NCBI GenBank assembly: GCA_030695925.1
Contig: JAUYOH010000148.1
Location: 1 to 64,000 of the forward strand
DNA from: Candidatus Omnitrophota bacterium
GTDB lineage: Bacteria; Omnitrophota; Gorgyraeia; Pluralincolimonadales; Pluralincolimonadaceae
DNA length: 64,000 nucleotides
Direction: 5' to 3'
Shown here: piece after piece, positions 48,332-50,868 of the stretch
Layout: every line of letters starts with the position of its first letter
How positions within the stretch are numbered: position 1 is the first letter of the stretch
Notes under the pieces: generated by a model
What the model was told of the DNA's origin: nothing
Database searches by the model: none
The model's input: the letters and a program-made list of their open reading frames with translations, nothing else
Made by a program: the position numbers and the translations under genes

Positions 48332-48952
48332 CTATTGGGCCCGCTCCTTCGAGGAGAACTTGATGTCATCTACATACAAGATGCCATTTTTGCGCGTCAC
48401 GGTTAAGTCATCGAAGGTAAATACAAGCTCCTTCGTCTTTGACCAGTCCGATATAGAGCCGGGGGCCTTCAGCTCTTTCATCGGAATAACGACCCGCTGC
48501 CATTGATCCGTAATGCCCTTTACTATACAGACGACGCGCTCCCCCTTGGCATTCTTAAGTTCCAGCTTAAATTGTGTTGTAAAACCGGCCTCCTCGTCAC
48601 CTTTTATCAACATACTCATCTCGTCGTAAGAACTCAGGTCCGTATTATTAAGCCCGATCCAGATTCCGTTAAAGGCGGGCTCGGTTGATTCCACATCGTA
48701 GGAAATCTTTAACACGTTGGTCTGGGTCGGGTTGCCCATGACTCCGGGCATAAGGATGACATCCATTTTACAGCCCTGCGTTGTATCAAGCGGGTTTGAG
48801 TCCCAAGTACCTACGCCTCCGCCAACGTCACTGTTGCCGCCGGTTCCAAAGCTCGCTATCATCAGGTCAGCAGCGAATAAAGGCCCACTAAAAATAATTG
48901 TGGCACATAAAAATATGAGTGAAAAAGCCGGGGATATCTTTCTGTTTTTCAT
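48332..48952 (-). CDS. Exported CBM-like protein, paralogue of the preceding gene
   Basis: Signal peptide MKNRKISPAFSLIFLCATIIFSGPLFA; YDEMSMLIKGD...WQRVVIPMKELKAPGSISDWSKTKELVFTFDD...GILYVDDIKF. Start moved from GTG 48991; GGGAGG SD. Confidence 0.65.
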   Translation of the reverse strand: MKNRKISPAFSLIFLCATIIFSGPLFAADLMIASFGTGGNSDVGGGVGTWDSNPLDTTQGCKMDVILMPGVMGNPTQTNVLKISYDVESTEPAFNGIWIGLNNTDLSSYDEMSMLIKGDEEAGFTTQFKLELKNAKGERVVCIVKGITDQWQRVVIPMKELKAPGSISDWSKTKELVFTFDDLTVTRKNGILYVDDIKFSSKERAQ

Positions 48953-48977: not shown

Positions 48978-49002
48978 TCTGGCGTCCCCACGGGGATTCG
49001 AA
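48978..49002 (-). repeat. 25-bp duplicate of tRNA-Glu 3' end (att-like)
   Basis: tctggcgtccccacggggattcgaa identical to 49693-49717. Confidence 0.92.
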
Positions 49003-49038
49003 GTCGTTCGGCCTTGCGGCCTCTCTTAATCGCAAATC

Positions 49039-49482
49039 CTAAACAGCCTCTTTAAAATACGAATCATAAATCGCCTTGGCTACAAAAAAACCTCCTAACG
49101 CAATTAAGATATCGGCCAGAGTGGATTTAAAAACCCAATCTAAAAACGCGGTGTTCTTATTCAAAAGGCCCGCGATCGAGAAATGGCTCATTAAAACGAC
49201 CGCGAATATAGCGAAAATGCCTTTTAATAAAAAACCGTAGATGACCGTCCTGCGCGACAAGAATAGCGCGGTAATCAAAAAAATGTCTATAAAGCTAAGT
49301 ATTGAAGCGAGGCTGTGAGAAAATGAAAATTTTTTAGCGCCTGAGATTATCACCTGCTCGCCCTGCCGATGAACTTCCAATTGGGGTTTTACATCGACCA
49401 GGGGAGGGTGAACCCTATAATGCAACATCCCGCCGCCTAACGCTACCAAAAACATCGCTAAAATTAACGCGCCTTTGTTCAT
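49039..49482 (-). CDS. Small multi-TM membrane protein of unknown function
   Basis: 147 aa, about four hydrophobic segments, no recognised family. Confidence 0.6.
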   Translation of the reverse strand: MNKGALILAMFLVALGGGMLHYRVHPPLVDVKPQLEVHRQGEQVIISGAKKFSFSHSLASILSFIDIFLITALFLSRRTVIYGFLLKGIFAIFAVVLMSHFSIAGLLNKNTAFLDWVFKSTLADILIALGGFFVAKAIYDSYFKEAV

Positions 49483-49488
49483 ATTCTT

Positions 49489-49587
49489 TTAGAACCTAAC
49501 CAAATGCCCCAAATAAAATATCAAAGCCATAACGATTATATGAAATATCCACCAGCCCGGTTTGCCCCACATAATATATTTTAGCAT
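49489..49587 (-). CDS. 32-aa single-TM small protein (tandem paralogue B)
   Basis: MLKYIMWGKPGWWIFHIIVMALIFYLGHLVRF; shares GWWxxHxI...YxLG with paralogue A; ATG 1 nt after the upstream stop. Confidence 0.6.
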   Translation of the reverse strand: MLKYIMWGKPGWWIFHIIVMALIFYLGHLVRF

Positions 49588-49588
49588 A

Positions 49589-49687
49589 TTACTTCCACAG
49601 AATATTTCCTAATGCATAAACAACCGCTATGCCTATCAGATGCACCAGCCACCAGCCCCATCCTAAGAATCTAAATGTTCGTTTCAT
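49589..49687 (-). CDS. 32-aa single-TM small protein (tandem paralogue A)
   Basis: MKRTFRFLGWGWWLVHLIGIAVVYALGNILWK; begins 7 nt downstream of tRNA-Glu CCA. Confidence 0.6.
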   Translation of the reverse strand: MKRTFRFLGWGWWLVHLIGIAVVYALGNILWK

Positions 49688-49694
49688 ATTTATC

Positions 49695-49772
49695 TGGCGT
49701 CCCCACGGGGATTCGAACCCCGGTCGAGAGCTTGAAAAGCTCTTGTCCTAGTCCGTCTAGACGATGGGGACG
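49695..49772 (-). tRNA. tRNA-Glu (anticodon TTC), CCA encoded
   Basis: CGTCCCCATCGTCTAGACGGACTAGGACAAGAGCTTTTCAAGCTCTCGACCGGGGTTCGAATCCCCGTGGGGACGCCA folds as a cloverleaf; anticodon loop TTTTCAA. Confidence 0.95.
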
Positions 49773-49779
49773 GCTCTAC

Positions 49780-50868
49780 TCATTCTCCTACCATATCCTT
49801 CACGTCCATCTTCTTTAAATACTCGACCCACGCCCTATCCAGGGCACCTATATTATCAAAACCATATACCTCAAAGAGCGAATTCTCGAACCCTTTCCCT
49901 TTTCTTAAATTATAATTAAATTCCTTAAATCTATCCTTACCTTTATCTCGCGCCAAAAAATACACTACACTCAGCCCGTCTTCGTAATTATGCTCGTAGG
50001 AATCATTGTTTGGGCTCAATAACGGGATGTGCTGGTTATTCATGGCCCTGAACCTGGAATTAGATATATCTCTCCTTGCCTCTCCGGTAGTCAAAAGGGC
50101 GTATTGTGCGATGCCCTCTGACCACCATCTCGGGATATTCGCCTCCTTCGTAAGCTCTCTGTATATCTCGTGCGCTATTTCGTGATAGATGACATCGGTC
50201 TTCATATACAGTTCGTAAAAAAAGACTCTTCTGTTTCCGGCCGCGAATGCCATCAGGGTATCGGGGTTAAAGCCTCGCGCCTGCGCGGCTTTCTTCCAAC
50301 TGGCGAAATCCCCGTATGAGTAAAATTTGAACTTCAGATCCCAATCCGGAGAGGCCGACTCATCGTAAATCTTAAACTCTTCATATCCGAATTTATCGGC
50401 GACCCTTTTACAATAATCCCCGACTTTTCCTTTCAACCGGCCCCTTACGATACCTTCATCGTGATGAAAGGCTATAAAGGCGTCTTCCTCGTAGATCTGC
50501 CATGGCTTGTCCGAATACCTGACCGTATCGGAGAATTTCAGCTCTTCATCGCGGCCCTGCGAACTCCCGTCCGAAGCGGAAGAGGCGCTCCATTTTTCCG
50601 TAAGGGCGCCATTCTCCTGCCTGCTCCATTTTTTGATATACTTTAAATCCGATCTCTTAAACGTCATCGTCCCTTCTTTGAGGCGAACGGTAACGCTGGA
50701 AGGCGACTGGTTTACGATTACCCCTTCATAGTGCTTTCCGTCTGAGGTCGCTAATTCATCTGCTAAAACGGGAATGACGACGCCGGATAATATTAGAAAG
50801 AGCGGGACTGTCGCATATCTTGAAAAATTACTTTTCCTCTCCACTTTCCTCTTCTTCCTCCGCGACAA
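49780..50868 (-). CDS. Gluzincin (peptidase MA-like) exported protein
   Basis: [29 protein letters not shown]; hydrophobic N-terminus. Confidence 0.65.

Follow-up and report, generated by a model that had tools for sequence, protein, structure and literature searches.

The 64,000-nt stretch of a Candidatus Omnitrophota genome analyzed here (all of which we call the window) carries, behind an intact tRNA-Glu(TTC) gene, a compact minus-strand run of three small membrane-protein genes, designated A, B, and core, which is bounded by a duplication of the tRNA 3′ end. The first-pass annotation had recorded an exact 25-bp repeat together with three open reading frames of 32, 32, and 147 aa separated by 1 and 6 nt, and both descriptions held. 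The sequence TCTGGCGTCCCCACGGGGATTCGAA occurs at 48978–49002 and 49693–49717 in the same orientation, and the whole genome (168 contigs, 94.6% complete) contains just these two copies, even with three mismatches allowed, rather than many at unrelated sites. The copy at 49693–49717 comprises the last 23 nt of tRNA-Glu plus two flanking nucleotides, and gene A starts 7–8 nt past the tRNA-Glu CCA. The features of the locus are as follows:

49695..49771, minus strand: tRNA-Glu(TTC), intact, detected with ARAGORN
49589..49687, minus strand: gene A, a 32-aa single-helix GWWxxH protein with homologues in L136, L137, L042, and L044
49489..49587, minus strand: gene B, another single-helix GWWxxH protein of 32 aa
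49039..49482, minus strand: core, a membrane protein of 147 aa with several helices and the conserved motifs HxRxH and MSHxS
49003..49026, minus strand: right-end segment, with the hairpin GGCC GCAA GGCC (49010–49021) and GAACGAC (49003–49009)
48978..49002, minus strand: second copy of the tRNA-Glu 3′ end, adjoining the CBM-like gene
48332..48952, minus strand: gene for a CBM-like secreted protein

Six relatives from the same family (G002, G003, G005, G006, G007, and G008) retain the gene order gyrA, tRNA-Glu, CBM-like gene, and in these the CBM-like start codon lies roughly 17–25 nt past the tRNA-Glu CCA. The empty site predicted from the window, with tRNA-Glu directly upstream of the CBM-like gene and no intervening run, is therefore present in these six genomes, and the A-B-core run is an insertion. 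Since the junction between the second copy and the CBM-like gene (27 nt) is the same as at the empty sites of the relatives, the copy at 48978 represents the original tRNA-Glu terminus, and the inserted unit, 715 bp in length, consists of the operon and one tRNA 3′ end, with the second copy 694 nt from tRNA-Glu. In the same-genus genome G001 (81% complete), the contig stops at the tRNA-Glu CCA, and neither the core, in a protein search, nor the operon and the CBM gene, in a DNA search, were found there; tRNAs are frequent break points in assemblies, which makes the contig ends at this tRNA ambiguous both here and in the family member G009. G009 also carries an ExbB–ExbD-like pair between tRNA-Glu and the CBM-like gene (L135:3953-5167), without a tRNA copy, that is, the same site is occupied by other genes.

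Copies of the last 22 nt of each of the 47 tRNA genes were then sought in the source genome. This revealed downstream copies of the 3′ end on the same strand at tRNA-Ala(GGC), tRNA-Pro(TGG), and tRNA-Gln(CTG) as well, so that 4 of the 47 tRNAs are duplicated in this manner. The three additional elements lie at the following positions of the source genome:

L185:8027-8238: tRNA-Ala element
L175:7995-8239: tRNA-Pro element
L188:1079-1371: tRNA-Gln element

All three follow one plan, in which an inverse copy of the T-arm of the respective tRNA is followed by AAGGGG and hairpins, a GAGCGACG-like motif, and the tRNA 3′ end again. They comprise a conserved structured repeat of about 110–200 nt, unrelated to the A-B-core insert, with 90% identity between the Ala and Pro elements across 86 nt. 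BLAST retrieved relatives behind tRNA-Lys, -Thr, -Ala, and -Gln genes and also behind the 5S rRNA gene of G009, where the element (L199:1370-1650) carries the 5S 3′ end both as an inverse and as a direct copy. A covariance model, R1, built from nine elements matched 56 of the 296 genomes of the class, and in a sample of the phylum nearly all matches fell within this class. These repeats thus constitute a family of structured elements (about 95–370 nt) located behind tRNA genes and, in one case, a 5S rRNA gene. Their plan runs from a guide (the inverse T-arm copy) through two or three hairpins to a direct repeat of the host 3′ end, with the guide and this copy predicted to pair as a closing stem, P1.

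Around the model matches and the other loci examined, 147 tRNAs exhibited 46 downstream copies of a 3′ end and 5 upstream ones, the latter being cross-matches among paralogous tRNA-Ser genes. The downstream copies, several of them in tandem, belong to 43 tRNAs of 13 isotypes, a set gathered mostly via the covariance model and hence not an unbiased rate. Most of the 43 elements also have a guide, and these inverse copies fit their own tRNA, with a mean local score of 9.16 against 6.29 (sd 0.24) when the tRNAs were reassigned; the observed score was attained in none of 5000 permutations, and the corresponding z of 11.8 overstates independence because related elements share ancestry. In unconstrained minimum-energy folds, the stem between the inverse and direct copies was closed in seven of eight elements, the exception being the Thr element of G008, which is without a tRNA copy. 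Of the 43 elements, 29 have the motif GARCGA no more than 45 nt from the copy, compared with 1.4% of random 45-mers that contain it. The left edge of the direct copies is fixed, in the T-arm, and their right edges vary from 18 to over 70 bp.

Relatives of these elements that are dispersed and have no tRNA were also observed in genomes of the class (L250, L252, L253, L254, L255, L258, L264, L267, and L270), with up to 17 model matches in a single genome, G260, and several of them end in CTAG-type repeats (CTAGTACACCG... / ...GGAGCACTAG). Three dispersed relatives show a likeness to the Rfam Clostridiales-2 RNA (RF02937) at 43.7, 42.3, and 35.9 bits, and the Ala and Pro elements at about 25 bits, all below the gathering score of 58.6; we know of no tRNA link of that RNA. 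At L260:1850-2040 (G269), a longer partial tRNA copy stands behind tRNA-Pro, forming a direct repeat of 151 bp, with a hairpin interrupting the D/anticodon part.

The RtT repeats of the Escherichia coli tyrT operon (Rfam RF00391) resemble this family in several respects: they stand behind tRNA genes, each unit terminates in a repeated tRNA 3′ end, and besides hairpins they have an inverse copy of the T-arm by which the fold is closed. The 178-bp repeats of tyrT go back to Bosl and Kersten (1991), as cited in PMC4986893, and RtT is described as being released from tRNA transcripts (PMC4986893). In our analysis, the 178-nt units of tyrT end in the tRNA-Tyr 3′ end, each includes a 22-nt inverse T-arm copy (86%), and the fold closes the stem. 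RtT matches were also found behind the tRNA-Lys genes of E. coli, and 3′-end copies behind its tRNA-Lys and tRNA-Arg genes, whose trailers hold shorter inverse stretches (scores 6–13); in MG1655, argQ–argV, lysT–lysQ, and lysV (L283, L284, and L287) have such downstream copies with hairpins, and the right end behind argV (GCCGCAAGGCGAGT-AATCC) resembles that in the window. Dispersed repeats related to RtT have been reported from enterobacteria (PMC2965389), and the Omnitrophota family likewise has its dispersed non-tRNA relatives. Unlike RtT, the Omnitrophota elements lie behind 13 tRNA isotypes and 5S rRNA, and the window has no guide. RF00391 gave no match in the window (L001) at E ≤ 1, with an E. 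coli positive control at 133–138 bits, nor in the other Omnitrophota loci scanned. By analogy, then, the Omnitrophota family appears to work like RtT, while membership by sequence model fails. In a search limited to openly licensed literature, we found no published description of the host-specific inverse copy.

Against this background, we consider that the duplicated tRNA-Glu end is probably the right end of an RtT-like tRNA-trailer repeat, the body of which was replaced by an operon cotranscribed with the tRNA. The locus carries a direct downstream copy of its host tRNA 3′ end, as the elements do, and a hairpin followed by GARCGAC directly precedes that copy, so that the segment 49003..49026 resembles the right ends of RtT-like elements and may be a remnant of one. 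When the 30 nt before the T-loop copy were compared with the other right ends, the mean of the five top scores was 11.6, against a mean of 7.4 for controls, and none of 2000 GC-matched 30-mers from the window reached 11.6. Several observations weigh against this assignment. The right-end comparison was made post hoc, with the resemblance already known, and it is only through this right end that the locus would belong to the family. No significant guide of inverse T-arm sequence was detected in the window: a short fold stem exists and is not significant, and the RNAduplex energy is no better than that of swaps and shuffles; this cruder test was weak for the family as well (best in 8 of the 43 elements) and was replaced there by the position-specific permutation test. 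Model R1 gave no match at 48978–49040 with filters off. Among the elements found, both the distance of the copy from the tRNA (694 nt) and the gene content are unique to this locus; in the others, the first copy lies at a distance of 94–343 nt, no obvious gene was seen in the longest of them, and no intermediate with both guide or core hairpins and genes was observed. We therefore describe the locus as a putative remnant or variant in which guide and core hairpins gave way to the operon.

According to this proposal, the tRNA-Glu element would have lost its guide and core hairpins to A-B-core, leaving behind its final hairpin, GAACGAC, and the copied tRNA end. The operon would be read from the tRNA-Glu promoter or one farther upstream, on which it very probably depends, because the short distance between CCA and gene A leaves no room for a promoter. 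Its transcript would then be freed by cleavage at the tRNA 3′ end, in the manner of the tpr open reading frame, which lies in a tyrT unit of the E. coli operon; judging from the sequence, cotranscription with the tRNA and 3′ processing are very probable. The host-specific inverse and direct copies might stem either from a mobile hairpin whose ends are made from the host or from template switching at the palindromic T-arm, and the fixed left and variable right edges of the copies are compatible with both.

The first-pass annotation had likened the duplication to the attL/attR footprint of a tyrosine recombinase and had offered a minimal mobilized cassette, an eroded element, or a tRNA-fragment duplication as possible sources; the last of these comes nearest to our results, and the tyrosine-recombinase reading found no support. 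In that reading, A-B-core with an attP would have integrated in the T-loop of tRNA-Glu as a minimal cassette or an island since eroded, its integrase acting in trans or being lost. The exact same-strand duplication of 25 bp from T-loop to CCA, the empty site, and the foreign-looking GC content and relatives of the operon would all fit, and tRNA-integrated islands similarly show an exact 3′-end duplication around inserted genes and an empty site in relatives. Unlike such islands, however, the unit measures only 715 bp, its flanks of 8 and about 37 nt show no island trace, and no suitable integrase was found in the element or the 94.6% complete genome, whose only two tyrosine recombinases are XerC/XerD-like. 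A viral or plasmid origin was also considered, and no carrier was found, neither the 25-mer nor a protein related to the core occurring on any viral contig. Moreover, the other three duplicated tRNAs of the genome have no island and are instead duplicated around the structured repeat, the right end of which the window copy shares. Integration by a tyrosine recombinase is thus unlikely. Integron cassettes offer an analogy only, being small promoterless gene units that end in a folded hairpin site (attC) with an internal loop; no IntI-type gene was found in the genome, the elements keep a copy of the host tRNA, and the attC likeness is loose and judged by eye.

Two further alternatives dispense with an integrase. 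Template switching or slippage at the palindromic T-arm could have duplicated the tRNA end in place and captured the operon with it, in which case the right-end likeness would be convergence or chance. This would suit the fixed left edge in the T-arm, the right edges ranging from 18 to over 70 bp, and the tandem arrays, but it leaves unexplained both the core sequence that elements at different tRNAs and in different genomes have in common and the right-end match in the window, and we regard it as quite improbable. The operon could also have arrived by homologous or illegitimate recombination with a donor that already had A-B-core behind tRNA-Glu, with crossovers inside the tRNA and at the T-loop. 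Donors of this sort are conceivable, given that a core-A/B pair lies directly behind tRNA-Gln in G009; yet no locus other than the window was found with A-B-core behind tRNA-Glu, two crossovers would be needed within 25 bp, and the right end of an element stands at the junction, which together make this route very improbable.

The elements suggest a testable rule, in that the insert holds a reverse complement and a copy of the 3′ region of its own host gene. They provide a likely reason for some tRNA 3′-end duplications with no integrase nearby and caution against calling each such duplication an att site, and they tie long-unexplained repeats of E. coli tRNA operons to a far more numerous group from an uncultured phylum, to which the window adds a case of genes occupying such a unit. 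What emerges looks like a widespread and barely studied class of repeats that copy pieces of the preceding tRNA and that includes the old, unexplained tyrT/RtT repeats. It is a tentative and rather doubtful extension that RtT-like elements form one widespread class of non-autonomous mobile elements, with ends made from host RNA, harmless behind many tRNA isotypes and 5S rRNA, and able to take protein-coding cargo in the way of a tRNA-anchored gene cassette.

With regard to the inserted genes themselves, homologues of all three in many phyla support A, B, and core as being real. The core, with HxRxH invariant and MxHxS nearly invariant, and its single-helix GWWxxH partners occur in Omnitrophota, Nitrospirota, Deltaproteobacteria, and others, in two arrangements, either a fused core-A followed by B, gene A homologues being fused elsewhere to the core C-terminus, or A-B-core as in the window. 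It is an ordinary operon spread across phyla and elsewhere not tied to tRNA ends. For the first-pass annotation, finding the same gene run at this position in diverse relatives without tRNA duplication would have counted against its reading; conservation of the run in diverse relatives without a tRNA was borne out, and conservation at this position was not. The difference in gene order at first looked like a circle opened within a gene upon integration; such a circular permutation was ruled out, given that A-B-core likewise occurs natively in Nitrospirota and in other Omnitrophota and is therefore an old order. The core of the window is 49% identical to that of Omnitrophota from another family, 45–48% to those of Nitrospirota, and about 35% to that of the family member G009. 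The low GC content of the cassette (41%, against 49% for the window) suggests that the operon was probably acquired, and its horizontal arrival is likely rather than proved. In G009, the fused core-A and B lie directly between tRNA-Gln and tRNA-Leu (L008:1284-2140), at the tRNA-Gln site where the source genome and G001 have a structured element.

The A, B, and core proteins matched no Pfam or NCBIfam family, and a fold search of the PDB with a fused homologue gave no match (best E-value 2.8); the AlphaFold model of the core has a predicted local distance difference test score (pLDDT) of 88.6. Genes for cytochrome c and HAMP-type proteins near the homologues in some genomes, and a GWWxxH segment fused to a rubredoxin-like sequence (L047:4522-4770), all identified by eye, hint at a possible membrane redox role for these proteins. 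On the other side of tRNA-Glu, a Peptidase-MA-like gene (49780–50868) lies between gyrA and the tRNA; it is present in G001 and absent from the other family members, and is a second genus-specific insertion beside tRNA-Glu.
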